From the NCBI GenBank assembly GCA_025965175.1, contig JAOPXL010000209.1, positions 1 to 53,615 of the forward strand: a DNA stretch of 53,615 nt. The letters run 5' to 3'. A program made the translations under genes and the position numbers. The notes below the pieces were generated by a model, which saw nothing but the letters and a program-made list of their open reading frames with translations, searched no databases and was not told where the DNA came from. This DNA comes from Aeromicrobium sp. Lineage in GTDB: Bacteria > Actinomycetota > Actinomycetes > Propionibacteriales > Nocardioidaceae. Below are positions 1,673 through 26,974 of the stretch, piece by piece. The first letter of the stretch is position 1. Each line of letters begins with the position of its first letter.

Positions 1673-1677
1673 CACAG

Positions 1678-1705: not shown

Positions 1706-1740
1706 TGGGGTGTCGCTTCGGCGGCGTTGAAAACTCAAGA

Positions 1741-2344: not shown

Positions 2345-2626
2345 ATGCCCGCCTTCACCGACGCCCAGATCGAAGACGCCCTCGAGAGCCTGCCCGGCTG
2401 GTCGCAGGAGGGGGAAGCCATCGTGAAGTCGTTCGAGTTCGATGACTTCCCGGCGGCCATCGCGTTCATCAACCGGGCAGCGGGCCCGATCGACGAGATG
2501 AACCACCACCCCGAGTGGACCAACGTCTACAACCGCGTCGACATTCGGCTGACGAGCCACGACACCGGCGGGGTCACCGACCGGGACGTGAAGCTAGCGC
2601 GGGTCCTGGAGCGCGTCGCCTTCTAG
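2345..2626 (+). CDS. 4a-hydroxytetrahydrobiopterin dehydratase (PCD/DCoH family)
   Basis: A 93-residue protein that dehydrates 4a-carbinolamine pterins, recycling the cofactor of aromatic amino-acid hydroxylases; many bacterial copies have a wider pterin role. The family signature EMNHHPEW is at about 51-58, followed by the conserved His of TSHDTGG (72) and an Asp at 79, at the expected spacing. An in-frame GTG at 2336 would add three residues (MKD). The GATAGC hexamer just upstream would suit leaderless or near-leaderless transcription. No aromatic hydroxylase gene is nearby. It converges on the VKOR gene, with 18 bp between the two stop codons. Confidence 0.9.
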
Positions 2627-2644
2627 CCGAGCGCACCCGGGCCG

Positions 2645-3256: not shown

Positions 3257-3361
3257 GATGGAAATCCTAGGGGGAGTCGGCAACCGGTGGTGGGCGGACG
3301 GGTACACGCCGCCGGCGACTCGGCTACAGTTCGGATACTCACGGTATTCGAAAGGTGTCCC

Positions 3362-4828: not shown

Positions 4829-4831
4829 CGC

Positions 4832-12260: not shown

Positions 12261-13472
12261 ATGGATGAGACGGAAATTGCGGTGATCGGGGCTGGTCCCC
12301 ACGGTCTGGGAGCGACCGAGCGGCTGCGTGCCGCAGGACGAGAGGTGGCCGTGATCGGCGAGCCCATGTCGTTCTGGCACACCATGCCGAAAGGCCTCTG
12401 GATGCGCTCACGCCGCAATGGATCGTCCATCGGTGACGTCACTGGGCCTCTGTCGATGGAGGGCTACACGGAATCCACCCAGGCCGTGGTGGAACGACAC
12501 CTGTCGCTCGAGACGTTCATCGAGTACGGCCTCTGGTACCAGCAGCGCGTCGCCTCCGACGTCATCCGTCGGCAGGTCGTCCAGCTCGCACGCGCTGGCC
12601 GCGGCTTCGTGCTCACGTTCAACGACGGGACCCACCTTCGAGCCAGCCGGGTCCTCGTGGCCACGGGCATCGCCGAGTTCACCCGGCGCCCGGCCATGCT
12701 GCGTCAGCTGCCGACCGAGCTGGCCTCCCACGTGGCCGATCACGGCGACTACGAGCGCTTCCGCGGCAAGAGCATCGCGATCATCGGGGCCGGGCAGAGC
12801 GCCCTGGAGTCCGCCGCGCTGATGCACGAGGGCGGCGCCGACGTCGAGGTGCTGGCCAGGCACCCTCAGGTCCATTGGCTCCACGGTGACGGTCTGATCG
12901 ACGGCCTCGGCCGCTTCGCACCGCTGTTCTACGCGCCCACCGACGTCGGCCCGATCGGGATCTCCCGGCTCGTCGCGACGCCCGAGGTCTTCCGTCGCTT
13001 CCCCCGTCCGATCTTCGACGTGATCGCCGCACGCGCGATCCGTCCGGCGGGGGCGTCCTGGCTCAAGCCACGACTGCCCGACGTGCCGATCACCGCGGGC
13101 GCGGTCGTCACCAGCGCGACCCCGCACCACGATCAGATCGACCTGCAGCTCTCGAACGGCAGCAGCCGTCGGGTGGACCACCTCCTGTTCGCCACGGGGT
13201 ACGACGTCGACATCCGGCGCTACCCGTTCCTCGATCGGACACTGGCCGAGCAGGTTCGATGCGTCGACGGCTATCCCGTCCTCAAACGTGGCCTGGAGTC
13301 CTCCGTGCCGCGGCTGCACTTCCTGGGGGCGCCCGCCGCCCGTTCCTTCGGGCCAGTCATGCGCTTCGTGGCCGGCAGCTGGTTCAGCTCGAAGGCGATC
13401 GTCAAGACCGTCGCCGCGCAGGACCGCGGGCGATCCGCTCGACGTGCGTCCCGCTCCGCGGCTGCGGCCTGA
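12261..13472 (+). CDS. FAD-dependent NAD(P)-binding oxidoreductase of the exopolysaccharide locus
   Basis: A 403-residue flavoprotein with two dinucleotide-binding motifs: GAGPHG (10-15) at the N-terminus and GAGQSALESA (about 175-184) in the middle. This two-Rossmann layout is that of flavin monooxygenases and ornithine-hydroxylase-like proteins. WHTMPKGLWMRS near residue 40 and LLFATGYDVDIRRYPFL near 315 also fit that superfamily. No Cys pair of the disulfide-reductase type is evident. ATG at 12261 follows a GGAG. It is the first gene of the rightward arm, and its TGA overlaps the ATG of the ATP-grasp gene (TGATG). The substrate is unknown; modification of a sugar-linked or amino-acid group is a guess from context. 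Confidence 0.8.
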   Translation: MDETEIAVIGAGPHGLGATERLRAAGREVAVIGEPMSFWHTMPKGLWMRSRRNGSSIGDVTGPLSMEGYTESTQAVVERHLSLETFIEYGLWYQQRVASDVIRRQVVQLARAGRGFVLTFNDGTHLRASRVLVATGIAEFTRRPAMLRQLPTELASHVADHGDYERFRGKSIAIIGAGQSALESAALMHEGGADVEVLARHPQVHWLHGDGLIDGLGRFAPLFYAPTDVGPIGISRLVATPEVFRRFPRPIFDVIAARAIRPAGASWLKPRLPDVPITAGAVVTSATPHHDQIDLQLSNGSSRRVDHLLFATGYDVDIRRYPFLDRTLAEQVRCVDGYPVLKRGLESSVPRLHFLGAPAARSFGPVMRFVAGSWFSSKAIVKTVAAQDRGRSARRASRSAAAA

Positions 13473-14683
13473 TGACCACCACCGACACCGGCCGGTCGTC
13501 CGCGTTCGCTCGCTCGCAAGGCGTGCCGGGAGCGCTGGTCGTCGGCGGCGACTACCAAGGTCTTGGCATCGCGAGGAGCCTCGGCAGACGAGGGATCCCC
13601 GTCGCGGTGCTCGACGACGAGGTCTCCATCGCCCCGAGGTCTCGCTACGTGCAGCACTCGATGCGGGTGCCCACGCTGCGCAGCGCGGAGGCGACCACGG
13701 ACGCCCTGCAGGCGGCGGCTCGCCGCTTCGGGCTGGACGGGTGGGTGCTGTTCCCGACCCGCGAGGAGACCGTGGCCGCGGTGGCACAGAACCGGGACGA
13801 GCTGGCACGCACGTTCCGGGTCCCGACTCCGTCGTGGCGGACAGTCAGGGTCGCCTGGGACAAGCGCCGGACGTACCAGGTGGCCGAGCGGCTCGGCATC
13901 GACGTGCCCCGGTGCTGGTTCCCCCACAGCGAGTCCGACCTGAGCGAGATCGCGCTCGACAACCCCGTGATCATCAAGCCTGCGATCAAGGAGCACTTCT
14001 TCTACGAGACCGGTGCCAAGGCGTGGCGTGCGGACGATCGGGCCGAGCTGCTGCACAAGTTCCGCCTGGCCACGTCGATCATCCCGGTCGAGGAGGTGAT
14101 CGTCCAGGAACTGGTACCTGGCGGCGGCGAGGGACAGCTCGCCTATTGCGCCTTCATCAAGGACGGTGAGCCGGTCGGGACGATGACCGTGGTGCGTCGG
14201 CGTCAGCACCCCTCCGATTTCGGCCGTGCCAGCACCTACGTCGAGACGATCGATCTGCCGGAGCTCGAGGCGCCCTCGCTGCGACTGCTGCGCGAGATGG
14301 ACTACTACGGCCTCGTCGAGCTGGAGTTCAAGCGGGACGAGCACACCGGCGCCGTCAAGCTGCTCGATGTCAACGCCCGAACCTGGGGCTACCACGGTCT
14401 GGGTCCCGCGGCCGGCGTCGACTTCCCCGCCCTTCTGCATCGCGACCAGCTGGGGCTGCCGGTGCACCCGTGCCGCGCCCGAGCCGGAGTGCGCTGGGTC
14501 CGGCTCGCCACGGACGTGCCGAATGCCGTGCGCGACATCAGACACGGCCGGCTCCGAGCCGCCGACTACCTGCGCACCCTGCGGGGGATCGACGTGGGCG
14601 CAGTGTGGGCGGCCGATGATCCGCTCCCGATGGTGGCGGAGATCGGGATCCTGCCGCGTCTCGCCATGAGCCGTGGGCTCTAG
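13472..14683 (+). CDS. ATP-grasp carboxylate-amine ligase-like protein
   Basis: A 403-residue ATP-grasp protein. An N-terminal pre-ATP-grasp domain starts ALVVGGDYQGLGIARSLGRRGIPVAVLD. The ATP-binding core follows, with WDKRRTYQVAERLGI, the lysine strand NPVIIKPAIKEH, the EEVIVQELVPGGG hinge, and the metal-binding end LVELEFKRD...LLDVNARTWG (about 278-302). Relatives form amide or carbamoyl bonds through acyl phosphates. In exopolysaccharide loci such proteins may attach amino acids or other acids to sugars, but here this is inference. Start overlaps the previous stop. Gene order FAD protein / ATP-grasp / deacetylase / GT4 suggests one decoration pathway. Confidence 0.82.
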   Translation: MTTTDTGRSSAFARSQGVPGALVVGGDYQGLGIARSLGRRGIPVAVLDDEVSIAPRSRYVQHSMRVPTLRSAEATTDALQAAARRFGLDGWVLFPTREETVAAVAQNRDELARTFRVPTPSWRTVRVAWDKRRTYQVAERLGIDVPRCWFPHSESDLSEIALDNPVIIKPAIKEHFFYETGAKAWRADDRAELLHKFRLATSIIPVEEVIVQELVPGGGEGQLAYCAFIKDGEPVGTMTVVRRRQHPSDFGRASTYVETIDLPELEAPSLRLLREMDYYGLVELEFKRDEHTGAVKLLDVNARTWGYHGLGPAAGVDFPALLHRDQLGLPVHPCRARAGVRWVRLATDVPNAVRDIRHGRLRAADYLRTLRGIDVGAVWAADDPLPMVAEIGILPRLAMSRGL

Positions 14684-14697
14684 ACAAGGGGTGTCAC

Positions 14698-16200
14698 GTG
14701 TTCACGTCATCGGTCCCTTTCGAGTTCGGCGACTACATGCGTGTCCCGGTCGCGGTCGACCCGACCCTGGGTCGCACGCTGCCGGACCGCGTCGGTGTCC
14801 TCCACGCCGCTGAGTCACCGGACGGGCCGCGGCTCCTGTGGGCCCGCTCCGTCGACGGTCGCCACTCGCCCGGGACCAGCACGGGCCACTACAAGCTCGA
14901 CGACATCGACCTCGTCTGCCCGGTGTTCACCGGGACACCCGAGGAGATCGGCTGTCGTCGCGGGACCGGGGGTGAGGGGTGGCGGCCCCTCACCCCCGTG
15001 CAGAACCTCCACGGCACCGTTGTGGCGCAGGTCTGGACCGACGATCACGGCAGCCTGTTCCTCCCGTTCGATCCGGGTGAGGCGATGTCGTGGCTGTGGT
15101 CGGAGCGATACACGACGCTTGGCAGCGCGGGACTGCGAAGCCGGCTGCGTCAGCTGGTGGTGACGGTCTACTACACGATCCGGCCGGTGCTGCCACGGAA
15201 GCTCCAGCTGGTGCTCCGCCGCGGTCACGCCGCACGGCAGACGTACCCGGACTTTCCCGGGTGGCCCGAGGAGCACGCGCTGCACGATCTCTACGACTGG
15301 CTCCTGGAGCGTCTCGAGCAGATCGCCGGGGAGCCTGTCCCGTACCTGCACCCGTGGCCGGACGGCCACACCTCGGCCTTCGTGCTCACGCACGACGTCG
15401 AGACTGCGGCGGGCCGGGACGCGATCGAGGCCCTGCGAGCGCCCGAGCGCGCACGCGGACTTCGGTCCTCGTGGAACCTGGTGCCCGAGCGGTACTCGGT
15501 GGCAGACGAGCTGCTCGACCTACTGCGGTCCGAGGGCTGCGAGATCGGCGTGCACGGGCTGCGCCACGACGGTCGCGACCTGGCGTCGAGGCGCATGCTC
15601 CGCAAGCGGCTCCCGGCGATCCGGGCCTGGGCGGACCGGTGGGGTGCCGTCGGCTTCCGGTCACCGGCCACCCAGCGCTCGTGGGACCTGATGCCGCAGC
15701 TGGGCTTCAACTACGACTCCTCCTACACCGACAGTGCACCGCACGAACCACGTCCGGGCGGATGCTGCACCTACCTGCCGTTCTTCATCGACGACCTCGT
15801 CGAGCTTCCCTTGACACTGCCGCAGGACCACACCCTGTTCGACATCCTCAAGATGACCGATGGGTCGGTTTGGCGGTCCAAGGTCGATGCGCTCCGGTCC
15901 CGCGGAGGGATGGTCCTGATGATCGCCCATCCCGACTACGTCGACTGCCCGGGAATGCTGCAGGCTTGGGAGGAGCTGCTGGACCAGCTGGACGCCGACC
16001 CCGGGGCGTGGCACGCACTGCCACGGGAGGTCGCCACCTGGTGGCGCCGCCGGGCGCAGTCGGTCCCGGAGCTGACGGGCGGGGTGTGGACGGTCCGTGG
16101 TCCTGCCGCCGGCGAGGCCGTGGTGGCGTGGTCGTCACCGCGGACCAGCCAACCATCCGGTCTTACGGTGGGGAACGCTTCAGAGGCTGCGCATGAGTGA
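14698..16200 (+). CDS. NodB-type polysaccharide deacetylase with a novel N-terminal domain
   Basis: A 500-residue protein. The first 210 residues match no family I recognise (FEFGDYMRVPVAVD, PGTSTGHYKLDD). The C-terminal half is a polysaccharide-deacetylase barrel. Motif 1 is LTHDVET (about 230-236, catalytic-base Asp), the metal histidines are in HGLRHD (about 286-291), and GFRSPATQRSWDLM is motif 3. The IAHPDY segment supplies the last His. No signal peptide is visible, so it probably acts in the cytosol on a nucleotide- or lipid-linked sugar. GTG start at 14698 after AAGGGGTG. It overlaps the next gene by 8 bp. Confidence 0.83.
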   Translation: MFTSSVPFEFGDYMRVPVAVDPTLGRTLPDRVGVLHAAESPDGPRLLWARSVDGRHSPGTSTGHYKLDDIDLVCPVFTGTPEEIGCRRGTGGEGWRPLTPVQNLHGTVVAQVWTDDHGSLFLPFDPGEAMSWLWSERYTTLGSAGLRSRLRQLVVTVYYTIRPVLPRKLQLVLRRGHAARQTYPDFPGWPEEHALHDLYDWLLERLEQIAGEPVPYLHPWPDGHTSAFVLTHDVETAAGRDAIEALRAPERARGLRSSWNLVPERYSVADELLDLLRSEGCEIGVHGLRHDGRDLASRRMLRKRLPAIRAWADRWGAVGFRSPATQRSWDLMPQLGFNYDSSYTDSAPHEPRPGGCCTYLPFFIDDLVELPLTLPQDHTLFDILKMTDGSVWRSKVDALRSRGGMVLMIAHPDYVDCPGMLQAWEELLDQLDADPGAWHALPREVATWWRRRAQSVPELTGGVWTVRGPAAGEAVVAWSSPRTSQPSGLTVGNASEAAHE

Positions 16201-17410
16201 CGTTCGCGGCGCACACGTCGCAGCGATGGTGCAGAACGTGTCCCTCGCCGACGACAACCGCCTGTGCAAGCAGGTCGAGGCGCTCCGGGCGGCGGGATGC
16301 CGGGTCACGGTGATCACGCGGCGCGATGATGCCAACGAGCCGTGGCGGGGTCTTCCCGGCCTGACGTTGCTCGAGTACCGCGCGCCGGTGGACGGCGCCT
16401 CCGCGGGCGGGCACGTCCGGGAGTACGCCACCTCGTTGATGCGGCAGATCCCGCGCCTGGTCCAGCTGCACCTGCGTGACCGCATCGACGTCCTGCAGGT
16501 CTGCCAGCCACCCGACCTCTACTTCCCGGTGACCGCGCTGGCCCGGCGGCTCGGGGTACGCGTGCTGCTCGACCAGCGCGACCTGATGCCCGAGACCTTC
16601 GCCCAGAGATATCCCTCTGCGCCGGCACGGGCGATGCAGGTCCTGGACTGGCTGGAGAGGCGCACCCAGGCCCATGTCGACGCGAGCGTGACGGTCAACG
16701 ACCACCTTCGTGACCGGTTGATCGCGGCGGGGGGCGCGCCCGAGCGGATCCACGTGGTCCGCAACGGCCCCGTGCTGGAGCGGCTCGATCGAGGCGGTGC
16801 GTCACCGCGCCTCCCGATCCCGTCACACGTGCGATCCGACCTCTCGTCGATCGTGACGTGGGCCGGCAAGATGGGCCGACAGGACCGGGTCGACGACGTG
16901 ATCCGGGTGGCGGATCGCGTGGTCCATGAGTGGGGTCGCGATGACGTGGGCTTCGTGCTGATAGGGAACGGTGAGTGCCTCGACGAGCTGCGCTGCATGG
17001 TCGACGAGCTCGGGCTGCGCGACAGCGTCTGGTTCCCCGGCTGGCTGGGCGAGGTGGATCTCTACGGTCATCTAGCCGCTGCCGATGTCGGCGTGGACAC
17101 CTCGTTGCAGCCCGAGGTGACCCCCGTGAAGGCGATGGAGTACCTCGGCGTCGGACTACCCCTGGTGGCCTACGACGTGCAGGAGACCCGGCGCCTGGCC
17201 GAGGGCGCCGCGGTCCTGGTGGCTCCGGGGGACACAGAGGCGCTGGCCCGCAAGCTGCTCAGGCTGCTCGACGACCCCACGGAGCGTGCACGGCTCGGCC
17301 GGGTGGGCAGCGATCGGGTCCGACGGTCCCTGGCGTGGGACCGTCAGAGCGAGGTCTACCTCGACACCGTCGCCGGGCTGATCACGACCCGCCGTGACGA
17401 GCTCGTCTAG
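16193..17410 (+). CDS. GT4-family glycosyltransferase
   Basis: A 405-residue GT-B glycosyltransferase. The N-terminal half binds the acceptor (HVAAMVQNVSLADDNRLCKQVEALRAAGCRVTVITRRDD), and DVLQVCQPPDLYFP is typical of GT4. The C-terminal half holds the nucleotide-sugar site with the donor-binding EVTPVKAMEYLGVGLP region (about 307-322), which corresponds to the EX7E motif. It would transfer one sugar to the lipid-linked repeat unit on the cytoplasmic face. ATG at 16193 overlaps the deacetylase stop. This is the only dedicated glycosyltransferase besides the initiating enzyme within the locus, so others must be encoded elsewhere. Its TAG shares the palindrome CTAG with the convergent operon. 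Confidence 0.9.
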   Translation: MSDVRGAHVAAMVQNVSLADDNRLCKQVEALRAAGCRVTVITRRDDANEPWRGLPGLTLLEYRAPVDGASAGGHVREYATSLMRQIPRLVQLHLRDRIDVLQVCQPPDLYFPVTALARRLGVRVLLDQRDLMPETFAQRYPSAPARAMQVLDWLERRTQAHVDASVTVNDHLRDRLIAAGGAPERIHVVRNGPVLERLDRGGASPRLPIPSHVRSDLSSIVTWAGKMGRQDRVDDVIRVADRVVHEWGRDDVGFVLIGNGECLDELRCMVDELGLRDSVWFPGWLGEVDLYGHLAAADVGVDTSLQPEVTPVKAMEYLGVGLPLVAYDVQETRRLAEGAAVLVAPGDTEALARKLLRLLDDPTERARLGRVGSDRVRRSLAWDRQSEVYLDTVAGLITTRRDELV

Positions 17411-18393
17411 TCCGCAAAACCGGGCTGGAGCCAGAACCTGTCGTCCATCAGGCCCTTGACGCGTGCGGCGTAGTCACGCGCCGCCGGGATCTTCCAGTCG
17501 CCCGCGAACCAGACCCCGACACACCCCCAGACGTCTCCACGCTCGTACCCGTCGCGGCGACTCAGCCAGACGATCCAGCCCTCCATACATCCGCGCAGGT
17601 GCGCGGCGGCGTAGTCCAGCGCGAACGCCGTCGAGTCCCGGCTGAAGGGGAATGTGCCGTTCTGGTTGCCAAGCATCCGCCCCCACTCGGGGTCCTGCCA
17701 GGCCATGACACCGATGATGGAGAACGTCTTGGGGCACACGCCTTCGCCGTAGTCGCGGGCGTAGTCGTACCCGTACCGGTTCAGCTCGGTGCAGAACTCC
17801 CGGGACGCGGCGGTGGGCTTCTTGACCATGTCGCCGCACCCACGCTTCTCGACGCACGTGCCGTCGGACTCGCGCTCACCCTCGTACCACGTCGACTCCG
17901 CAGCTGCCATGGCCCTGAGCAGGTTGTCGGATATCCCCCACTTGCAGGCCGCCCACTGGATGTTCTCGTCAGTGGTCCCGGTGTGCTGGCCGGTCACGCG
18001 AGGCAGCAACCACGTGTTGAACTGGGATGCGTAGGTGCGCCCATCACCGCGTGGTCGCGAGGAGAACGATCGACGGACGTCGGCGGGGTTCGGCCGCGTG
18101 TGATTGGCGACGGTGTTGCTCGGCCTGGGCTCCCACGTCGAGCGGTGCACCCGGCGGGCGCAGCTCTGGCCCGACGGCAGGTCCTTCCACGAGCCGGCCG
18201 GCTGCGTCGTGAAGTACCCGTCGGGGTCGGGCCCGCGCGCGGTGCCCTTCGGGGCGGGTACGTCCGAATCACTCCGCAGGCCCGAATCGCTCCGCAGGCC
18301 CACGGCCAGCAGCGAGCCGACGGCCGCGAGGAGCAGCACCCCGCCGAGGACAGCCTTGAGCCAGCCCTTGTTCAACCGCGGCGGAGACCACAT
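17407..18393 (-). CDS. Secreted Cys-rich lysozyme-like protein of the exopolysaccharide operon
   Basis: About 328 residues with a signal anchor at 15-33 (LKAVLGGVLLLAAVGSLLAVGL) and a mostly extracellular chain. The segment NLLRAMAAAESTWYEGE, followed by IIGVMAWQDPEWG and a run of aromatic residues, looks like a lysozyme/lytic-transglycosylase fold with the candidate catalytic Glu near 166. Eight cysteines in the exported part suggest four disulfides. A tandem duplication of six residues (GLRSDS) sits just after the anchor. ATG at 18393 overlaps the previous stop (TGATG); a GTG at 18396 is equally possible. Cleaving the polymer or opening peptidoglycan for it are plausible roles, but the family assignment is tentative. 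Confidence 0.65.
   Translation of the reverse strand: MWSPPRLNKGWLKAVLGGVLLLAAVGSLLAVGLRSDSGLRSDSDVPAPKGTARGPDPDGYFTTQPAGSWKDLPSGQSCARRVHRSTWEPRPSNTVANHTRPNPADVRRSFSSRPRGDGRTYASQFNTWLLPRVTGQHTGTTDENIQWAACKWGISDNLLRAMAAAESTWYEGERESDGTCVEKRGCGDMVKKPTAASREFCTELNRYGYDYARDYGEGVCPKTFSIIGVMAWQDPEWGRMLGNQNGTFPFSRDSTAFALDYAAAHLRGCMEGWIVWLSRRDGYERGDVWGCVGVWFAGDWKIPAARDYAARVKGLMDDRFWLQPGFAD
18264..18299. repeat. 18-bp tandem duplication inside the lysozyme-like gene
   Basis: Two adjacent 18-bp units (18264-18281 and 18282-18299) differ at one base and encode GLRSDS twice, directly after the membrane anchor. They look like a recent in-frame duplication in a linker. Confidence 0.85.
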
Positions 18394-19892
18394 CACGAGA
18401 GCACCGGGCTTGTGGGCTCGCCGTTGGGGGACGGCTGGGGGAGGCGACCGGCGTCCCCGGTCAGGTCGGATCCGGCAGCTCCCGGCCGGAGGTCCTCGCG
18501 GCTCGCGGGTCTGGTCCAGCCGCGAGGGTCGGTGTGGGGACCGGGCCAGCGGGCCGGGGCCGGTGCGAAGCCGCCCGACGTCGGGTTGATCCAGAACCTC
18601 AGAGCCGTGACCTGGCGGGTGGCCCAGGCCCGTGCCGTGGCGAATCCTTCTCGCAGGCGCCGACGGCGGGGCGTGATGACCAGACCCATCAGCTTGTCGG
18701 TGTCATGATCCAGGGCCTGGACCGCGGCGATCGTCGACGTGCGCGAGCAGCGGCCCAGAGCGACCACCAGGAGGATTTTGTCGGCACGCAGGGCCATCCC
18801 GGCGCTGCGCCAGGCTGGCGGGCCGTCGATGACGATGAGCGCCTCGGGCAGACGCTCGTGGAGCTCGGGGATCAGGTCCGTCAGCCCCGCTGCGGCGGCC
18901 CCTGCGTCGTCCCACTCACCCACGGGGACGACGTGCAGCCCCTCGTGCGTGGTCGATCGGGCCTTCGGCCACGCGCTCCCGTGGGCGGCGCCGACCTTGG
19001 CGCTGTTCCGATCCCGGGACATGCGTGCGACGACCTCATCGTCTGCCGTCACCAGGACCACGACTCGCCCCATCCGCGCCAGGGCGAGAGCGGTCAGCGC
19101 CGCGACCGTGGAGCTGCCGCACCCCGGCGCCGCCCCGGTCACCAACAGGGAGGACGGCGGTCCTCCTTCGACCCGACCCAGCACCCGTGCGGCCAGCGAG
19201 TCGAGCTGTGCGCGACCAGCCCGGACACGCGGATCGTTTCCCGTCGACCTGCGGGTCAGGGCTGGAGTCACCGCCAGGGCGTCGAGGTCGGCGCATCGCT
19301 CGGCGTCGTCGATCGTACGGATCCGGCCCCGTACACGGTCCCACGCGCGTGCCGCGCCGAATCCGGTCAGCAGGCCCGCGAGGACCGCCACGCCCAGGAT
19401 GACCGGGTAGTTGGCACCCACGGGCGCGGACGGAAGCGTCGGCGGACTGACCATCTTGGCGACGGGATTCTTGCCGCCCGGCGGGTTGCGCACCTTGAGG
19501 TAGGTCCGGGCGAAGACCTTTGCCCCCTCCAGCGCAGCCTCCGGGGTGCCGGCCGTGTAGCTCATCACGAGGACCTGGGTGTCGACGGGGACCGAGACCG
19601 ACAGGTGCTGGAGCGGCTGCCTGGCCGTCACACCCAGCTCCGCGGCCGCGGTGCTGATGACCTCGGTGGAGGTCGCCACCCGTTGCTCGGTCGGCATCGA
19701 CGGCGCGATGAAGTTGCCGCTCGGCGTGATCGTCGGATCGATCAGGATCTCCGCGGTGGCCGAGTACCGCGGATCGCTCTGGGTCACGTGAAGCGCGACG
19801 GCGATGGACAGGCCCGTGGTGACGATCATCATCCAGGCGTACAGACGGAGCATCGCCGTGTCGCGGCCCCTGGGCAGAGTCGAGGCCCTCAT
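18393..19892 (-). CDS. Wzz-like chain-length protein fused to a degenerate BY-kinase domain
   Basis: 499 residues. Two membrane helices (about 17-36 and 161-181) flank a Wzz-type extracellular domain, as in polysaccharide co-polymerases. The C-terminal cytoplasmic domain resembles a bacterial tyrosine kinase but is degraded. The Walker A loop reads APGCGSST (255-262), with Ser in place of the essential Lys. Walker A' reads VTADDE instead of DxD. Only Walker B IDGPP (355-359) looks normal, and the tail has no tyrosine cluster. It probably regulates chain length without kinase activity. ATG at 19892 has a strong AAGGAGG and overlaps the upstream stop. The longer frame upstream is an antisense shadow of the polymerase gene. 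Confidence 0.85.
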   Translation of the reverse strand: MRASTLPRGRDTAMLRLYAWMMIVTTGLSIAVALHVTQSDPRYSATAEILIDPTITPSGNFIAPSMPTEQRVATSTEVISTAAAELGVTARQPLQHLSVSVPVDTQVLVMSYTAGTPEAALEGAKVFARTYLKVRNPPGGKNPVAKMVSPPTLPSAPVGANYPVILGVAVLAGLLTGFGAARAWDRVRGRIRTIDDAERCADLDALAVTPALTRRSTGNDPRVRAGRAQLDSLAARVLGRVEGGPPSSLLVTGAAPGCGSSTVAALTALALARMGRVVVLVTADDEVVARMSRDRNSAKVGAAHGSAWPKARSTTHEGLHVVPVGEWDDAGAAAAGLTDLIPELHERLPEALIVIDGPPAWRSAGMALRADKILLVVALGRCSRTSTIAAVQALDHDTDKLMGLVITPRRRRLREGFATARAWATRQVTALRFWINPTSGGFAPAPARWPGPHTDPRGWTRPASREDLRPGAAGSDLTGDAGRLPQPSPNGEPTSPVLS

Positions 19893-21352
19893 GGTTGTCC
19901 TCCTTGAACAGATTGACGACGCGATCGCTGGCTCTCCGCGGCGACCTGACTTCCGCACGCAGACAGGGCCAGGAGGCCGAACAGGGCGTCCGCCGACCCG
20001 CGATAGGTGATGTGCGGGTCGAAGATCATGAGCACGATGCACGACACCAGGCCTGCGTACGAGGCCAGGGCCGCCACCGCCGACGGGGTGGCCAGCGCGC
20101 GCGCGGCCGGTCCGGTCGTCTTCAGACCCGTCCACACGAACCAGCCGAACGCCAGGAACAGAGGCAGGCCCCCTCCCCACAGGAGCCACAGGTAACCGCT
20201 CTCGATCCAGACGAAGCCGAACGCGCCCTCGACAGGCACGCGAGCAGCGGGTCGCACGCCGACGAGGAAATTGCTGCCGTCGATGATCTGCGGCCAGAAG
20301 TAGGTCGCCAGGTTGTAGTAGCGCACCAACCAGCTGGTCGGCATGCCGTGCAGCGAGGAGAAGTCGGCGATGCGCGGAGCGATGGTCGTCGGCCACAGGG
20401 CCGCGACCGCGACCGGGAGGCCCAGCAGGGACCACCTCAGCAGATCGAGACGGCGCAGCAGCACGGCGACGCACACGATGGCCAGCATGAGTCCCAGGAC
20501 GCTGGAGAACTCGGCGGCGGAGAACACGGACACGACGAGGACCAGCGCGGCCGGGGCCAGGCACCAGATCAGGGCCGGCGTCCGGCTCAGCAGGCCCAGG
20601 ACGATCACCAGGTTCAGCACCATGAGGTCCGCCGTGGCCGCCGGGAGACCGACCGTCGAGCCGGCCCGGGTCGAGAGGACGACGTCGCTGTAGCCGAACG
20701 GCGCATACAGCGGTTCGAGCAGTGCGCGCACACCGAACAGGTCGAGCGACTGCATGAGGCCTATCAGCCCGACCACCACCCCGACGACCACCGACACCCA
20801 CAGGGCGATCGCGACCTCGCGCTCGCTTCGTACCGTGAAGCGGACGACGGCGTACAGCAGCAGGAACTTCCACATCACGACCGCGTAGGTCCAGTCGTCG
20901 AGCTCGACCGGCCGTCCACGAAGGATCATGAAGACGATCGGGATCAACGATGCGGCGAGCGCGAACCACACGAACGCGCGGGCCATCGGGTCCAGCGTCA
21001 GGACGAACCGGCCCCTGCGTCGACGCTGCAGCGCGACCTGCACACCCAGGATGGCGACGAGGAAGAACGTCAGTGCCTCGTTGACCCGCATCTGGGGCAC
21101 CAGACGGCCCCGGTCGATCCCCACCACGAGTGGGGTGACGCCGACGATCAAGTACGCCGCGACGGCCGGCCGCCTCCAGACGGCCGCAGCCAGGATCGCC
21201 CCGACCACCAGACCCAGACACACCAGAGGTGCCCTCCCGGCCAGCACGCCCATCCCGGCCGCGACCATGACGCCCAACAACAGGACGACGAGCGCTCGGA
21301 CCCGGTCGGACCGATCAGTCGGCCAGTACTCCTCGGCGACGAAGGCGGTCAT
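19889..21352 (-). CDS. Wzy-like O-antigen polymerase/ligase
   Basis: A 487-residue polytopic membrane protein with about 11-12 hydrophobic helices and one large extracellular loop around 330-400 (ADFSSLHGMPTSWLVRYYN...GFVWIESGYLWLLWGGG). This layout is typical of O-antigen ligase/polymerase (Wzy_C, PF04932) proteins, which join lipid-linked repeat units on the outer face of the membrane. Sequence conservation in the family is low, so the call rests on topology and position between flippase and co-polymerase. Start ATG at 21352 overlaps the flippase stop (ATGA). Polymerase versus ligase cannot be decided from sequence alone. Confidence 0.82.
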   Translation of the reverse strand: MTAFVAEEYWPTDRSDRVRALVVLLLGVMVAAGMGVLAGRAPLVCLGLVVGAILAAAVWRRPAVAAYLIVGVTPLVVGIDRGRLVPQMRVNEALTFFLVAILGVQVALQRRRRGRFVLTLDPMARAFVWFALAASLIPIVFMILRGRPVELDDWTYAVVMWKFLLLYAVVRFTVRSEREVAIALWVSVVVGVVVGLIGLMQSLDLFGVRALLEPLYAPFGYSDVVLSTRAGSTVGLPAATADLMVLNLVIVLGLLSRTPALIWCLAPAALVLVVSVFSAAEFSSVLGLMLAIVCVAVLLRRLDLLRWSLLGLPVAVAALWPTTIAPRIADFSSLHGMPTSWLVRYYNLATYFWPQIIDGSNFLVGVRPAARVPVEGAFGFVWIESGYLWLLWGGGLPLFLAFGWFVWTGLKTTGPAARALATPSAVAALASYAGLVSCIVLMIFDPHITYRGSADALFGLLALSACGSQVAAESQRSRRQSVQGGQP

Positions 21353-22971
21353 GCGGGGCTCGATCCGGGAACGGCGCGATCGCCACGTGCTCCGTCGAGC
21401 AACCACGTCAGCTCCACCGAGCCGAGGGATCGGTGGATGCCCAGGTAGACCGCGACGCCGGCCGAGGTGCCGACGAGACTGGCGATGAGCCAGGCGGACG
21501 CACCCTCCAGCGTCGCCGTCGCGACGGCGGCGACGGACCACGCGACCGCTGCCATCGCGACGCTGGCGGAGACCGTGCGGCACACCGAGGGCCACAACCG
21601 GTTCGTCGGCGGGGCGAGCCCGTGGCGCACCCGGAGCGACAGGTGGACGCCGCCGACCATCGAGGCCACGGCGAAGGCGCCGCTCAGCCCGGTGACCAGC
21701 GCGGACCCGCTGACGAACCCGGCCGGCACGACGAGTGCCACGCAGACGACCGACTGCACCATCATCGAGCGCAGCGGTGACCTCGCATCGCTTCGGGCAT
21801 AGGCGGCCTGCGTGGAGATGACGAAAAGCGTCTCGCCGACGAGCCCGAGCGCCAGGGCACTCAGCGATCCGGCCACCATCGCGACACCGGCGGCGGTGGA
21901 CATCTGTCCTGCCGCCACGACATGCGCCAGGGGAAGTGCGAGCACGAGGTAGCCGAGTGCGGCAGGAACCACCAGGAACAGGGCCAGCCCGACAGCACGC
22001 TGATAGGCATCGGCGAAGTCGGTCGCGTCGTCCTCGTCCGTCATCCTGGACAGCCGCGGTAGGAGTGCCAGGCCCACAGGGGCGGCCGCGATGGCCAACG
22101 GCAGGTGGTAGAAGCTCAAGGACATCTGCAGGGCGACCGTGCCGCCGGCCACCTGTCCGGCCACGGCCAGCAGCAGCAAGGTCTGGGCCGCGAGCAGGCC
22201 GGCCTGCGCCATGGACGAGACCGCACGCCGCGCGACCTGACGGACGTCGGGGTCCCGCCAGCCGGGCCTGGGGAGGAGGGTGACACCGCACCGGCGCGCG
22301 CCCCACCACTGGACGCCGGCGTGCATGACCACGGCGAGGGTGGATCCGCCACCGATCAGCAGCACGGCCGCAGTCGGCACCGACCCGTCCGTCGGACTCG
22401 CGAACAAATGCCCGGCGAGGAGCAGCACGGCGATGACGCCCAGGTTCTCCAACGCGGGCGCCGCGGCGGCGAGCAGGTAACGACGTTTCGCGTACATCAC
22501 CGCGGTGGCCGATGCGACCAACGCGTAGCAGAACACCTGAGGGATCGCGAGCACGGCCAGCGGCAGCACCGACTCGCCATTGGGCAGGAACAGCGGCACC
22601 GCGATGATCGCGACAGGAGCCGCGACCAGCAGGATCAACCACTCGACGCCGAGAAACCCGCCCGCGACCCGCCCGGTCTCGTCGCCGTCACCGGCGTCGA
22701 TGTGTCGCACCAGGGCCGGCACCAGCAGTGACGACAGCAGCGAACCGGCCAGGAAGCCGTAGAAGACCAGGTTGGGCAGCACGTTGGTCAGCTGGTACGA
22801 GTTGGCGAAGAACGTCGGACCGAGCACGGCGCCGATGACGATGACCCGCGCCAGCCCGGTCACCCTGCTGGTCATGGTCCAGACAGCGACGGTCATGGTG
22901 TCCCGCGCTGCTCCGGCATCGATGGACAGGTCCTCGGACGCGAAGGGCGACTGTTGTCCGCCTCGGCTCAT
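21349..22971 (-). CDS. MurJ/MviN-type lipid-linked oligosaccharide flippase
   Basis: A 540-residue membrane protein of the MVF/MOP superfamily with about 14 helices. The N-terminal TVAVWTMTSRVTGLARVIVIGAVLG and YQLTNVLPNLVFYGFLAGSLLSSLLVPAL are characteristic MurJ text. Placed in an exopolysaccharide operon, it probably works as the Wzx-equivalent that moves the undecaprenyl-linked repeat across the membrane, rather than as the essential lipid II flippase. ATG at 22971 follows GGAGG and overlaps the preceding stop by 4 bp. The upstream extension of the open frame overlaps the sugar transferase and is not used. Confidence 0.88.
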   Translation of the reverse strand: MSRGGQQSPFASEDLSIDAGAARDTMTVAVWTMTSRVTGLARVIVIGAVLGPTFFANSYQLTNVLPNLVFYGFLAGSLLSSLLVPALVRHIDAGDGDETGRVAGGFLGVEWLILLVAAPVAIIAVPLFLPNGESVLPLAVLAIPQVFCYALVASATAVMYAKRRYLLAAAAPALENLGVIAVLLLAGHLFASPTDGSVPTAAVLLIGGGSTLAVVMHAGVQWWGARRCGVTLLPRPGWRDPDVRQVARRAVSSMAQAGLLAAQTLLLLAVAGQVAGGTVALQMSLSFYHLPLAIAAAPVGLALLPRLSRMTDEDDATDFADAYQRAVGLALFLVVPAALGYLVLALPLAHVVAAGQMSTAAGVAMVAGSLSALALGLVGETLFVISTQAAYARSDARSPLRSMMVQSVVCVALVVPAGFVSGSALVTGLSGAFAVASMVGGVHLSLRVRHGLAPPTNRLWPSVCRTVSASVAMAAVAWSVAAVATATLEGASAWLIASLVGTSAGVAVYLGIHRSLGSVELTWLLDGARGDRAVPGSSPA

Positions 22972-23651
22972 CGAGCACCTCCGCGCAGCATGGTCAGGGG
23001 AGTGAAGACGATGATCCGCAGGTCCGTGGCGGGCGCGCACTTCTCGACGTACTCGACGTCCAGGCGCAGGCCGTCGAGCATCGTGAGCCGGTTCCGGCCG
23101 CTGATCTGCCACAAGCCGGTGAGTCCCGGTCGCACGAGGAACCTGCTGGAGACCGAGATCGGGAAGAGCTCTGCCTCCCACGGCAGCGCGGGACGCGGAC
23201 CCACCAACGACATGTCGCCGCGCAGCACGTTGATCAGCTGGGGAAGCTCATCGATGCTGGTGCGCCGGAGGAACCGTCCCACGGGGGTGACGCGCGGGTC
23301 GTGATCGAGCTTGTACAGGCCCTCGTACTGCCGGGGGTCCTCCCCGGCCATCATCCGCCGGACGAACGACTGGTGCGCCTCGTGCGAACAGTCCTGGACC
23401 ATGGTGCGGAACTTCAGTAGGACGAATGGTTGGGTGCCTGCTCCGACGCGCACCTGGCGGAACACGGCGCCCCCAGGACTCGTGATGCGCACGGCCACGT
23501 AGGCCAGCAGCATCACCGGTGACAGGACGATCAGCAGCAGCGCGGCCAGCACGACGTCAAGCGCACGTTTGCCGGGGTACTGCCGGATCCCGGCGCGAGA
23601 CAGCTGGCGCGTCCGACGAGCGCTGAGCCGCCCGGCCAGCCACGCGGTCAT
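22968..23651 (-). CDS. Initiating sugar transferase (polyprenyl-phosphate phosphoglycosyl transferase)
   Basis: A 227-residue small-type bacterial sugar transferase (PF02397). A re-entrant membrane helix (about 27-50, KRALDVVLAALLLIVLSP) precedes the catalytic core with LKFRTM (about 79-84), RRTSIDELPQLINVLRGDMSLVGPRP (about 128-153; Asp-Glu catalytic pair) and LTGLWQISGR. It transfers a phospho-sugar from UDP- to undecaprenyl phosphate and starts each repeat unit. Given the neighbouring WlbA/DegT/acetyltransferase genes, a diacetamido sugar is a plausible first residue. Its ATG at 23651 overlaps the acetyltransferase stop by 4 bp. Confidence 0.93.
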   Translation of the reverse strand: MTAWLAGRLSARRTRQLSRAGIRQYPGKRALDVVLAALLLIVLSPVMLLAYVAVRITSPGGAVFRQVRVGAGTQPFVLLKFRTMVQDCSHEAHQSFVRRMMAGEDPRQYEGLYKLDHDPRVTPVGRFLRRTSIDELPQLINVLRGDMSLVGPRPALPWEAELFPISVSSRFLVRPGLTGLWQISGRNRLTMLDGLRLDVEYVEKCAPATDLRIIVFTPLTMLRGGAR

Positions 23652-24292
23652 GCGACGCTCCCCTCGTCCTCCGGGGCCTCGGCAGCCCGCAGGGAGTACC
23701 GGTGCCCGGCCAGACGATCGGCCCCCTCGACGCGCTTCTCGACCGGCACCAGGTCCTCGACCCGCCCGCGCACCCGAGCAGGGTTCCCGAAGGCCACCAC
23801 CCCTGGCTCGACATCGCGCGTGACCACCGAGCCGGCGCCGATGATGGCGCCCTCTCCGATCCGCACGAAGGGCAGCACGGTGACATTCACGCCGAGCTGG
23901 GCGCCCGCTCCGATGAATGGTCCGGACATCACGTCTCGCGAGCCCTGCTGCCCCGGGTACAGGTCGTTGGCGATGCTCACACCCGGAGCGAGGAAGGCGC
24001 CGTCGCCGATCTCGGTGTACTGCGCCACGTAGCAGTTGCAGTGGATCTTCACCCCGTGGCCGATCACCGTGCCGTAGTCGATCACGGTGTTGCTCCAGAT
24101 CGACACGTCGTCACCGAGCACACAGTCCTCGCGGATCACGACGTTGTGCCCGGTCTCCAGTCGCTCGCCGATGCTGCACCCGCTGTACACGACCGTCCCG
24201 CAGCGCAGGAATCCCCGTCCCCACGGGCCGTACGCCCAGGCATCCTCCTCGGAGAGGAAGACCTGTCGGGGCTCACGCTCCGGGCCGGTCAC
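23648..24292 (-). CDS. Hexapeptide-repeat N-acetyltransferase (WlbB/WbpD-like)
   Basis: A 214-residue left-handed beta-helix protein built from hexapeptide repeats (VVIREDCVLGDDVSIWSNTVID, YGTVIGHGVKIHC, then AIIGAGSVVTRDVEPGVVAFGNPAR). The GNPAR end is typical of sugar-nucleotide acetyltransferases. In the Wlb/Wbp pathway such an enzyme acetylates the 3-amino group made by the aminotransferase. Position directly after a WlbA-type dehydrogenase and DegT aminotransferase supports this role. It overlaps the aminotransferase gene by 20 bp. An O-acetyltransferase role cannot be excluded. Confidence 0.85.
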   Translation of the reverse strand: MTGPEREPRQVFLSEEDAWAYGPWGRGFLRCGTVVYSGCSIGERLETGHNVVIREDCVLGDDVSIWSNTVIDYGTVIGHGVKIHCNCYVAQYTEIGDGAFLAPGVSIANDLYPGQQGSRDVMSGPFIGAGAQLGVNVTVLPFVRIGEGAIIGAGSVVTRDVEPGVVAFGNPARVRGRVEDLVPVEKRVEGADRLAGHRYSLRAAEAPEDEGSVA

Positions 24293-25460
24293 CGGGGGGC
24301 TCCATGTCGGCCGTGATGTGTGCGAGAGCGTCGCAGACCCGCATCACGTCGGTGTCGGGCAGTCGGGGATACATCGGCAGGGACACGATCTGTCCGGCAA
24401 GGGTCTCGACGTTGGGCAGACGGCCCGGGGACCAGTGCTGGTACGGGGCCAGTTGGTGGCACGGCGTCGGGTAGTGGACTCCCGTGGCGATGCCGAGGGC
24501 GGCGAGCTCGGTCCGCACGCGGTTCCGCTGCGGAACCCTGACCACCATCAGGTGGCGGACCCCTTGGGAGTGCTCGAGCTGGAGCAGCGGTGTCACCGTG
24601 GGCGGGAGCTCCGCGGCGTACAGCCGGGCCAGGCGGCGCCGATCGTCGTTCCACTGGTCGAGGTGCCGCAGCTTGGCGGACAGCGTCACGGCCTGGACCG
24701 TGTCCAGCCGGCTGTTGGTCCCGATCCGGACGTGGTTGTAGTGCCGTCCTTCGGAGTCGCTGGGCCTGCCGTGGTCGCGCATCGAACGGATGCGCTCGGC
24801 GATGCCCTGGTCGGAGGTGACCACTGCGCCGGCGTCGCCGAACGCGCCGAGGTTCTTGCCGGGGTAGAAGCTGAAGCAGCCGACGGCGCCGAAGCCTCCT
24901 GCCCTGGTGCCGCGCCACGTGGCACCGTGTGCCTGCGCGGCATCCTCGATCAGCACCAGACCGTGCCGCGTCGCGCAGCGGGCGAGAGCATCCATGTCCG
25001 CGAGCTGGCCGAACAGGTGGACGGCCACGATGGCCCGGGTCCTGTCGGACAGCGCAGCCTCGACCTCCGCCGCGCCCATCAGCCCGGTGTCCAGCGCGGC
25101 ATCGACGAACCGAGGAGTCGCCCCGACGAGCACGATGGCCTCCACCGTGGCGACGAACGTGTTCGCCGGCACGATGATCTCGTCGCCCGGGCCGAGGTCG
25201 AGCGCACGCAGCGCCAGGACCAACGCGTCGGTCCCGTTGCCGACCCCCATGGCGTGCTCGGTGCCGCAGTACGCGGCCCACTCGTCCTCGAAGGACTCGA
25301 CCTCCTCGCCTCCGACGAAGCGGTTGGACGCAATCACCTTCTCCCAACCCGTTCGTACCTCGGTGGCGACCACGGCGGTCGTGGTGCCGAGGTCCAGGAA
25401 CGGGATGGTGCCGGACGGCGGCACCGGAGCCGGGGTCGTCACTTCCACGCGTGTAGTCAT
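24273..25460 (-). CDS. DegT/DnrJ/EryC1/StrS aminotransferase (WlbC/WbpE-like)
   Basis: A 395-residue PLP-dependent sugar aminotransferase. GNGTDALVLAL (75-85) binds phosphate, EDAAQAHGA (172-180) holds the Asp that contacts the PLP nitrogen, and the internal-aldimine lysine is K202 in FYPGKNLGAFGDAGA. It would aminate a 3-keto UDP-sugar using glutamate. ATG at 25460 overlaps the dehydrogenase stop (ATGA). The open frame extends much further upstream only as an out-of-frame shadow of the dehydrogenase gene. Confidence 0.92.
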   Translation of the reverse strand: MTTRVEVTTPAPVPPSGTIPFLDLGTTTAVVATEVRTGWEKVIASNRFVGGEEVESFEDEWAAYCGTEHAMGVGNGTDALVLALRALDLGPGDEIIVPANTFVATVEAIVLVGATPRFVDAALDTGLMGAAEVEAALSDRTRAIVAVHLFGQLADMDALARCATRHGLVLIEDAAQAHGATWRGTRAGGFGAVGCFSFYPGKNLGAFGDAGAVVTSDQGIAERIRSMRDHGRPSDSEGRHYNHVRIGTNSRLDTVQAVTLSAKLRHLDQWNDDRRRLARLYAAELPPTVTPLLQLEHSQGVRHLMVVRVPQRNRVRTELAALGIATGVHYPTPCHQLAPYQHWSPGRLPNVETLAGQIVSLPMYPRLPDTDVMRVCDALAHITADMEPPGDRPGA

Positions 25461-26584
25461 CCGGCGAACTCCTCTTGAACTGCTTCGCTCAGGACGGGCG
25501 TGACGGCCGAGCCGGTCGGGCGTGCCTCGTCCAGCGACGGCACCGGCGCGAAGTCCCGTGTGCGACCGGGCAGGCGGACCGCGACGCCCTCGTGCATGGC
25601 ACGTTGCGCGGCCTCCAGCACCTGGACCACCTCGACGCCGCTCTGGCCGTCGGTGAGCGGTCGGAGACCGGTCTGCACACAGTTCAGGAAGTGCTCGTCC
25701 TCGACGCGCAGCGGCTCGTTCATCGCCAGGTAGGGCGAGACGATGTCGCCGTGCCGGTAGGACATCGGGATCGCGGTGAGGTCGGCGCCGTCCGTCATCG
25801 CGGTGACGCCCTTGTCGTGCACCTTGACGCGCTGCTCGGCCTTGAGGTCGTCGAAGACCACCATCTTGTTGCTGCCGACCACCGTGACCTCGCGGACCTT
25901 CTTGGGGTTCAGCCAGCTGACGTGGACGTTGGCGAACACCCCCGGGTCGTCGTAGTAGAGCCTCAGCTGCGCGACGTCCTCGAGCCGGGGGTGGGCGTTG
26001 CGCGCACCCCAGCACTCCACCATCGACGGCGACGACCCGAGCACGTAGTTCAGGATGGAGATGTCGTGCGGGGCCAGGTCGAAGACCACGTTGACGTCAC
26101 GTTGGTACAGGCCGAGATTGAGCCTGGCTGTGTCGAGGTAGTACAGGTCGCCGAGATCGCCTCGCTGCACCATCGACCGGAGCTCCCACACCGCGGAGTG
26201 GTACTCGAAGGTGTGGCCGACCATCAGTGTCACGCCCTTGTTCTCGGCCGCCCTCACCATGGCTTGGCCCTCCTTGACGGTGGGCGCCAGCGGTTTCTCG
26301 ACCAGGACGTGGACCCCACGCCCGATGGCCTCCAGCGCGAGGGGGGCATGCAGTGTCGGCGGCACTGCGATCACCACCGCGTCGAGCTGCCCCAGCGCAT
26401 CGCTGAGAGTTCTGTACTCGTCCACGCGCGGATACACGCGGGTGACCGCGCTGCGCCTCTCGTCGCTCGGATCGATCACGCACACACGTGACACGGCTTC
26501 CAACGACAGCAGGGTCCGTACGTGCTTCGAACCCCAGTACCCGCACCCGACGACCCCGACTCGAAGTCCTTGCTCTGCCTTCAT
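25457..26584 (-). CDS. Gfo/Idh/MocA dehydrogenase (WlbA/WbpB-like)
   Basis: A 375-residue NAD(P)-dependent sugar dehydrogenase. The Rossmann motif is GVVGCGYWGSKH (10-21), the family EKP motif is at 96-98, and GHTFEYHSAV follows in the catalytic domain. WlbA/WbpB enzymes oxidise C3 of UDP-GlcNAcA, starting the route to 2,3-diacetamido-2,3-dideoxy sugars. The aminotransferase and acetyltransferase that follow match steps two and three. UDP-GlcNAc 6-dehydrogenase, needed before this step, is not in the window. It is the first gene of the leftward operon. A GTG one codon upstream (26587) is an alternative start; no strong ribosome-binding site is seen. Confidence 0.9.
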   Translation of the reverse strand: MKAEQGLRVGVVGCGYWGSKHVRTLLSLEAVSRVCVIDPSDERRSAVTRVYPRVDEYRTLSDALGQLDAVVIAVPPTLHAPLALEAIGRGVHVLVEKPLAPTVKEGQAMVRAAENKGVTLMVGHTFEYHSAVWELRSMVQRGDLGDLYYLDTARLNLGLYQRDVNVVFDLAPHDISILNYVLGSSPSMVECWGARNAHPRLEDVAQLRLYYDDPGVFANVHVSWLNPKKVREVTVVGSNKMVVFDDLKAEQRVKVHDKGVTAMTDGADLTAIPMSYRHGDIVSPYLAMNEPLRVEDEHFLNCVQTGLRPLTDGQSGVEVVQVLEAAQRAMHEGVAVRLPGRTRDFAPVPSLDEARPTGSAVTPVLSEAVQEEFAG

Positions 26585-26974
26585 CACTCAACTCGCATTC
26601 TCGCGGCGAGCGGCTTGGCGGAGCCGACTCATGGCTTGCTGACAACAGCCACCTCACTACAGCGAGCCGAGCATTGGCAATGACACGAACGGTGGGTATG
26701 CAAATGCCAAAATCGCCCATCCTGAACTGTTCGCCGAGGACGACCGACGGCTGACGCGGGCTGTTGCCGGCGCCGGTGGCGGAGAGCCGCAACAGGCTGC
26801 GGACAGCCGCACATCGTGGTCGCCGGGTGGTGCGGACCCCCGTAGGAGTTGGAGGAATTGCACCCGGACCGTTCTGGACGGATGCATTGTTCTGGCATAT
26901 CCCGGCGCACTCGAGGTCCGAACGGCGACCGGGGACAGGCAGCTCAGCCGCGGAACGACACCCAGGGGAGCCTC
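26585..26974. other. 390-bp gene-free divergent control region of the leftward exopolysaccharide operon
   Basis: No convincing protein-coding frame is present; the open frames here are short and have no recognisable domain. The part near 26650-26730 is richer in A+T than its surroundings and holds the inverted repeat TTGGCA (26674-26679) and TGCCAA (26705-26710), 25 bp apart. The region must drive the wlbA-like gene leftward and the leader/BldC-like genes rightward, but no clear -35/-10 pair can be assigned in either direction. The long leader suggests regulated transcription. Confidence 0.5.

Follow-up and report, generated by a model that had tools for sequence, protein, structure and literature searches.

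We analysed a contig of the soil actinobacterium Aeromicrobium sp. (NCBI assembly GCA_025965175.1, contig JAOPXL010000209.1; 53,615 nucleotides, hereafter the window) in which four plus-strand genes converge on a set of polysaccharide genes. An earlier note had taken the four, which encode a flavin adenine dinucleotide (FAD)-dependent oxidoreductase, an ATP-grasp ligase, a deacetylase and a GT4 glycosyltransferase, for a single sugar-decoration module. Comparison of their neighbourhoods across genomes points to a smaller unit, the FAD, ATP-grasp and deacetylase genes (hereafter the trio), which is tied to one conserved Wzx/Wzy-type polysaccharide block. The plus-strand features are:

12261..13472, plus strand: FAD-dependent oxidoreductase, class B monooxygenase-like, 403 amino acids (Pyr_redox_2, Pyr_redox_3, motifs); cassette gene 1
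13472..14683, plus strand: ATP-grasp ligase, 403 amino acids (PF15632); cassette gene 2
14698..16200, plus strand: deacetylase, CE4/PuuE-type by predicted fold, cytosolic, 500 amino acids; cassette gene 3
14698..15063, plus strand: N-terminal accessory domain of the deacetylase, mainly beta by secondary structure, about residues 1-122, no family assigned
16193..17410, plus strand: GT4 glycosyltransferase (Glyco_trans_1_4, 74.4 bits)

Open reading frames (ORFs) and junctions confirmed the tight layout described before. The ATP-grasp ATG overlaps the FAD stop codon by one base, a gap of 14 bases separates the ATP-grasp gene from the GTG start of the deacetylase, the deacetylase and GT4 genes overlap by 8 bases, and the 3' end of the GT4 gene reaches 4 bases into the convergent minus-strand gene at 17407-18396. 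From spacing alone we infer one transcript for the four genes, and the GT4 gene is probably co-transcribed with the trio at this locus. The ORF list also has a longer ATP-grasp ORF, from 13259; we prefer the short start at 13472 because it lies at the FAD stop codon and relatives align from about there, a weak support given that starts in the relatives were chosen by their nearness to the alignment. None of the four proteins contains a transmembrane-like stretch (highest 19-residue Kyte-Doolittle mean, 1.15), which fits the previous description of the deacetylase as cytosolic.

The operon on which these genes converge had been called Wzx/Wzy-type; it has family matches to MurJ/Wzx, Bac_transf, hexapeptide, DegT and Gfo/Idh/MocA proteins:

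17407..18396, minus strand: family-less conserved block protein (LYT), with relatives in trio loci and in blocks without the trio
18393..19898, minus strand: Wzz/ATPase-like chain-length protein, start approximate (by inspection; weak AAA_16/BcsQ matches; relatives in the block)
19889..21340, minus strand: Wzy-like polymerase, start approximate (by inspection; no good Pfam match)
21349..23181, minus strand: MurJ/Wzx-type flippase, ORF as listed, start uncertain (PF03023, 128.3 bits)
22968..23651, minus strand: polyprenyl-phosphate sugar-phosphate transferase (PGT; PF02397, Bac_transf, 200.5 bits; TIGR03025, 246.4 bits, cut-off 295.55)
23648..24292, minus strand: hexapeptide acetyltransferase (PF00132, 88.7 bits; QdtC 3fs8, E 7.3e-27)
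24273..25460, minus strand: DegT/WbpE-like sugar aminotransferase (PF01041, 360.4 bits; QdtB 3frk, 289 bits; WbpE 3nyu, 252.8 bits)
25457..26587, minus strand: Gfo/Idh/MocA oxidoreductase (PF01408, 94.3 bits; uridine diphosphate N-acetylglucosamine (UDP-GlcNAc) 3-dehydrogenase model NF040723, 198.3 bits, cut-off 450)

The LYT protein, of about 330 residues, has no Pfam or NCBIfam match. It occurs in 9 of the 15 trio loci described below, with 52-79% identity in the eight others of these and in both trio-less blocks. By inspection it looks membrane-anchored.

The trio is conserved well beyond the window. With the deacetylase as bait, we surveyed 293 genomes of the order, scoring up to 5 candidates per genome (up to 4 in the survey of the ATP-grasp gene), so that negatives from either survey are soft. 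Matches were found in 17 of the 293, of which 9, our own genome included, extended over near-full length; a scan of named species genomes added 12 deacetylase loci, 10 of them good relatives. After two duplicates were merged, 17 distinct genomes with a close deacetylase relative entered the alignment (A1). Partial matches of 24-42% identity (G007, G018, G020, G022, G042, G051, G081, G136, L030 and L031) were left out of the order count, and neither a FAD nor an ATP-grasp match was found at the left-out loci L011-L018, at the longer L040 and L041, or at L030 and L031. When 395 other genomes of the phylum were scanned with the A1 profile (up to 4 candidates scored per genome), none gave a relative at E <= 1e-15. 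The closest named relatives of the deacetylase are that of Aeromicrobium ginsengisoli, at 85% identity, and that of Aeromicrobium sp. 9AM, at 81%; A. ginsengisoli JCM 14732 has both the trio and the block.

In 15 of the 17 genomes with a close deacetylase relative, the order FAD, ATP-grasp, deacetylase is kept on one strand. These trios are spread over Aeromicrobium, two other genera of its family and one genus of another family, and occur also in Actinocatenispora, Longispora, Actinomycetospora and Paractinoplanes. Averaged over alignment columns, identity amounts to 69% for the FAD protein and 71% for the ATP-grasp protein (15 rows each), and to 56% for the deacetylase (17 rows). The window's upstream genes (TetR, DUF3048 and Lhr) have no match in the trio loci, over mostly about 6.5 to 7.7 kb beyond the FAD gene; conservation therefore ends at the FAD gene. 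A search for the gene order across actinobacterial genomes, which the earlier note had proposed, thus found the trio conserved and linked to polysaccharide genes rather than scattered. Among the matches listed, no open-access title or abstract opening describes such a trio. At the Actinocatenispora locus (L022, 4542-7610), the gene directly upstream of the FAD gene encodes a protein of 1023 residues that combines repeat domains with a canonical polysaccharide deacetylase domain.

The polysaccharide block accompanies the trio without being bound to it in position. When the block's Wzy was searched for in the 293 genomes of the order, 11 were positive, namely the nine with a near-full-length deacetylase and two others, G009 and G024 (9/9 against 2/284; Fisher p 1.4e-15, uncorrected for kinship or linkage). 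Over all sources Wzy is present in every one of the 15 trio genomes (nine from the order sample and six others). In all three Paractinoplanes genomes the trio lacks a block within about 10 kb, and the block lies on a different contig (Wzy 43%, MocA 54-55% and, beside Wzy, a GT4 relative at 40-42% identity). This separation is a better argument for the association than the Fisher p, because the genomes are related and the loci mostly linked.

The two genomes with the block alone complete the picture. The blocks of G009 and G024 contain MocA, DegT, hexapeptide, PGT, Wzx, Wzy, Wzz, LYT and GT4 genes, and no FAD, ATP-grasp or deacetylase match occurs within 19.5 kb around them (the FAD gene was not searched genome-wide). 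With all candidates scored genome-wide, neither G009 nor G024 yielded an ATP-grasp relative to a profile that finds the gene in G000 and G109, or a deacetylase relative (controls G013 and G087 positive). In G009 the GT4 gene (51% identity) keeps its position and adjoins an alanyl-tRNA synthetase gene, named by inspection; the GT4 relative of G024 (43%) is found on the opposite side of the block. Among the 15 trio loci the GT4 gene follows the deacetylase in ten, precedes the FAD gene in two and has no nearby match in three. In all five examined blocks that lack the trio or lie apart from it, a GT4 relative stays with the Wzx/Wzy genes. Because of the Paractinoplanes separation and the trio-less blocks of G009 and G024, the GT4 gene is, judged from gene content, part of the backbone gene set, and the trio is present, absent or relocated as one unit. 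The proposed four-gene module thereby contracts to three.

The sugar genes of the block indicate what the trio might act on. A MocA-type dehydrogenase, a DegT aminotransferase and a hexapeptide acetyltransferase stand together in the window; their families are broad and their substrates are predicted ones. The model nearest to the MocA protein is a UDP-GlcNAc 3-dehydrogenase, the solved structures nearest to the DegT protein are the desosamine-type transaminase 2oga, QdtB and WbpE, and that nearest to the hexapeptide enzyme is QdtC. By these family relations the block should make a 2,3-diacetamido-2,3-dideoxy sugar.

Neither Pfam nor NCBIfam gives a significant match for the deacetylase, which is predicted to adopt the fold of a CE4/PuuE-type enzyme, with conserved D/E/H candidate residues that we take to form the active site. 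It had been called NodB-type; a PF01522 match over cut-off is missing. In this genome PF01522 occurs at C108 only, and among the 17 relatives it matches six, weakly (best E 0.014). The enzyme shares its predicted fold with the CE4/PuuE-HpPgdA deacetylases (3rxz, 1z7a, 3cl6 and 3qbu) and differs from them in a THDVE motif, an extra beta domain, a helical connector and the missing PF01522 match. The "unknown 210-residue N-terminal domain" of the earlier note remains without an assigned family, but it is better divided into a mainly beta domain (residues about 1-122) and a conserved helical connector (about 126-210) in the predicted secondary structure, as the Ignavibacteriae relative L029 lacks the first and keeps the second. 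The beta domain is shortened in L025-L027 and barely covered by structural matches, and a helical-moment check of the connector showed nothing special. Weak similarity links the deacetylase to WbmS (3hft), a putative deacetylase of Bordetella O-antigen synthesis, on whose function we found no paper and beside which no ATP-grasp/FAD pair is known. An archaeal protein with a 75-bit match to the VimE model (cut-off 440) aligns to the deacetylase profile with 94.7% probability.

ATP-grasp ligases couple a carboxylate to an amine. The protein of the window matches PF15632 over cut-off and shows the superfamily fold, as in 2pn1, PurK, PylC and L-amino-acid ligase, with conserved candidate catalytic residues. 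It shares family and fold with the PRK12767/PF15632-like carboxylate-amine ligases and differs from them in having no close solved relative (best profile match E 1.8e-4). In PMC2824669, an ATP-grasp ligase is predicted to modify surface polymers in animals. The flavoprotein matches Pyr_redox_2 (69.3 bits), Pyr_redox_3 (60 bits) and Lys_Orn_oxgnase (25.6 bits), and its best profile match in the PDB is the flavin-containing monooxygenase (FMO) 5nmw (58.8 bits). In all 15 relatives it carries the motifs GAGP[HY]G, G[AG]GQSA and [AG]TGY, which conform to a GxGxxG, GxGxxA and ATGY-like class B pattern; the two dinucleotide motifs and the ATGY-like motif are shared with class B flavoprotein monooxygenases (FMO and N-hydroxylating). 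Between the two dinucleotide motifs a stretch [ST]H...H.D is present in 15/15 and appears to depart from the FMO fingerprint. The protein has no CxxC and no cysteine common to all 15 relatives.

A precedent for such an enzyme combination is the Wbp/Vim pathway of Porphyromonas gingivalis and Tannerella forsythia. As described in PMC7468200, the proposed order on 2,3-diacetamido uronic acid is deacetylation followed by addition of serine or glycine; VimE is the putative deacetylase, and VimA, judged by an interspecies swap that changed serine to glycine, presumably adds the amino acid. An association with an exosortase is reported for the pathway but is not obligatory. The window resembles this pathway in that it, too, has Gfo/Idh/MocA, DegT and hexapeptide-type genes in a polysaccharide context, together with a CE4-type deacetylase and a separate candidate enzyme for acylating the freed amine. 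It differs in that an ATP-grasp ligase and a flavoprotein stand in place of the FemAB-like VimA, and in that its deacetylase falls outside the VimE model NF053580.

The two remaining loci among the 17 close deacetylase relatives offer the most telling comparison. They come from metagenome-assembled genomes (MAGs) of Acidimicrobiales (L028) and Ignavibacteriae (L029), lack the FAD and ATP-grasp genes and contain MocA, DegT, hexapeptide and PGT genes. Each carries a VimA-like FemAB gene (TIGR03019, 119.6 and 133.6 bits, cut-off 260.35; PF13480 over cut-off), and L029 additionally has AsnB, for which tblastn found no match in the window. The gene set of both loci is that of the Wbp/Vim pathway. 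FemAB had no tblastn match in any of the 15 trio loci, the window's included, and elsewhere in the nine genomes searched TIGR03019 gave weak partial matches of at most 44.9 bits. On the simplest reading, the ATP-grasp enzyme with the flavoprotein would replace VimA in Actinomycetota.

We tentatively favour, with a little less than an even chance of being right, the view that the trio is an optional decoration cassette of one conserved Wzx/Wzy polysaccharide, replacing one acetyl on a diamino sugar by some other acyl group. Its basis is the kept gene order, the tie to the block even across contigs, presence or absence as a unit, the invariant candidate active-site residues, and the occurrence of FemAB in the two relatives without the FAD/ATP-grasp pair. 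MocA would oxidise C3, probably of UDP-GlcNAc, DegT would aminate it and the hexapeptide enzyme would acetylate the new amine. The cytosolic deacetylase would then strip one acetyl from the diacetamido sugar, as nucleotide sugar or lipid-linked repeat, and the ATP-grasp enzyme may activate a carboxylic acid (an amino acid being the likeliest) and join it to the freed amine, the job proposed for VimA. Deacetylation followed by ATP-grasp acylation, as suggested before, fits both the neighbouring diacetamido-sugar genes and the Wbp/Vim precedent (PMC7468200). In the weakest step, the flavoprotein might prepare the acid for the ligase or oxidise the attached group.

If the cassette reading holds, the removal of N-acetyl groups from diamino sugars followed by a new acylation, a chemistry put forward for the glycans that anchor proteins in Porphyromonas and Tannerella, would extend to Gram-positive Actinomycetota, where a different, ATP-driven ligase and a flavoprotein would be used by a route not yet described. 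Three uncharacterised protein families would gain a shared, testable role, and backbones with and without the cassette would offer natural presence/absence pairs for comparing polysaccharides. A more specific version, in which the flavoprotein is an N-hydroxylase partnering the ATP-grasp enzyme and the polysaccharide bears N-hydroxylated aminoacyl or hydroxamate groups on the diamino sugar, is a long shot; it would imply an iron-binding or reactive surface polymer, and to our knowledge such a decoration is known in no bacterial glycan.

FAD/ATP-grasp pairs also occur outside the cassette. Bradyrhizobium barranii (L066) has an overlapping pair (46 and 47% identity) with MocA, sugar transferase, DegT and hexapeptide genes and two AsnB genes, and no deacetylase or FemAB was detected in about 31 kb. 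Of ten distant actinobacterial ATP-grasp loci, seven have an adjacent FAD relative and no deacetylase match:

L045, L046, L047, L049, L050, L051 and L052: distant actinobacterial ATP-grasp/FAD pairs, about 29-31% and 34-37% identity

Neighbouring ORFs, viewed at the three longer loci L056, L057 and L058, received no assignment. It follows from the Bradyrhizobium pair and the seven loci that the FAD/ATP-grasp pair does not need a deacetylase of the window's type. The earlier idea that the flavoprotein oxidises the group added after deacetylation is a guess. In Mesorhizobium, relatives of the ATP-grasp (28%) and FAD (35%) genes lie one gene apart beside glycosyltransferases. Of eight plasmid records with a FAD relative, six regions were examined; an annotated ATP-grasp or carboxylate-amine ligase gene lies within two genes of it in four and not in two, and in Granulicella the ATP-grasp neighbours have no tblastn match with the window's ATP-grasp gene. 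Matches to the ATP-grasp gene occur in 78 plasmid records, of which a minority had their neighbourhoods examined; on the Azospirillum, Deinococcus, Priestia, Halocatena and Halobaculum plasmids no annotated relative of the trio's FAD gene stands beside the match. The Priestia megaterium plasmid (L070, 6025-10228) carries PIG-L deacetylase, GT4, ATP-grasp ('carbamoyl-phosphate synthase') and kinase-like genes consecutively, amid spore-coat genes, as an independent deacetylase/GT4/ATP-grasp combination.

The pairs of Bradyrhizobium and of the seven distant loci weigh against the cassette reading, as do several other points. The Wbp/Vim precedent includes no flavoprotein as described in the part of PMC7468200 used here. 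The window deacetylase matches no NCBIfam family at E <= 1, and VimE none of its 17 relatives. All specific NCBIfam models leave the sugar-gene assignments under their cut-offs, and the ATP-grasp fold, common to many carboxylate-amine ligases, does not fix the acyl donor. The FemAB alternative is a two-case argument, seen in only two loci, both in MAGs far from the trio clade. Moreover, one Haloprofundus region (L068) has an ATP-grasp relative alongside a FemAB-like gene and a deacetylase resembling VimE (75 bits, cut-off 440); FemAB and the ATP-grasp gene are therefore not strictly exclusive everywhere. Finally, the exosortase PF09721 is over cut-off in 0/293 genomes of the order (two weaker matches lie in trio-less genomes), on which ground we rejected the idea that the product serves as linking sugar for an exosortase, the only sortase type searched. 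The Haloprofundus region, on a plasmid of H. salinisoli (864-9116), is in itself a Wbp/Vim-like set in Archaea, including MocA, DegT, acyltransferase and nucleotide-sugar dehydrogenase genes and the divergent ATP-grasp gene.

Among the alternatives, the best placed, though unlikely, is that the ATP-grasp enzyme activates the carboxylate of a uronic acid in the sugar and couples it in an amide bond to an amine that the flavoprotein produces or modifies; the deacetylase would work independently, on a different acetyl group. Since such a ligase joins a carboxylate to an amine, the sugar could be either partner, and the Bradyrhizobium pair is accompanied by sugar genes of these kinds, with no deacetylase detected. 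Genes of the UDP-sugar dehydrogenase family (PF03721) occur in 9/9 trio genomes searched, but the family is near-universal (13/14 control genomes), which makes its presence say little, and it has no match in the window. MocA is more like an enzyme for UDP-GlcNAc than one for the corresponding uronic acid, and this alternative does not explain why the deacetylase is tied to the FAD/ATP-grasp pair. That same tie bears on a second alternative, to which we give rather less credence, namely that the deacetylase resembles ArnD in acting on a lipid-linked sugar or repeat, leaving a free amine and a positive charge, while the FAD/ATP-grasp product is an unrelated envelope component or small molecule and the genes are merely co-inherited. 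The trio is intact in all 15 actinobacterial genomes that have the pair and the deacetylase, including the three where it lies apart from the block, and the deacetylase and ATP-grasp genes are both missing from the two block-only genomes.

A low-molecular-weight thiol pathway of the mycothiol or bacillithiol kind, in which GT4 makes a glycoside, the deacetylase an amine, the ligase adds cysteine and the flavoprotein reduces a disulfide, is very improbable and was rejected on the cysteine content of the FAD protein and the separability of GT4 from the trio: the enzyme classes are those of MshA/B/C and BshA/B/C, and the FAD protein is weakly like the bacillithiol reductase YpdA (33.6 bits, cut-off 339.9) and matched by 7a76, annotated as a thioredoxin reductase (47.9 bits), but it lacks the cysteines noted above, the GT4 relative goes with the block in 5/5 cases (apart from the trio in three genomes, trio-less in two), and the trio tracks the Wzx/Wzy block. 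The YpdA cysteine presumably sits at the GPxG position, where the window's FAD family has H or Y.

Elsewhere in the window, a 602-residue ORF at 2645-4453 on the minus strand has a VKOR domain in its C-terminal part; its long N-terminal stretch may reflect a wrong start or a fusion.

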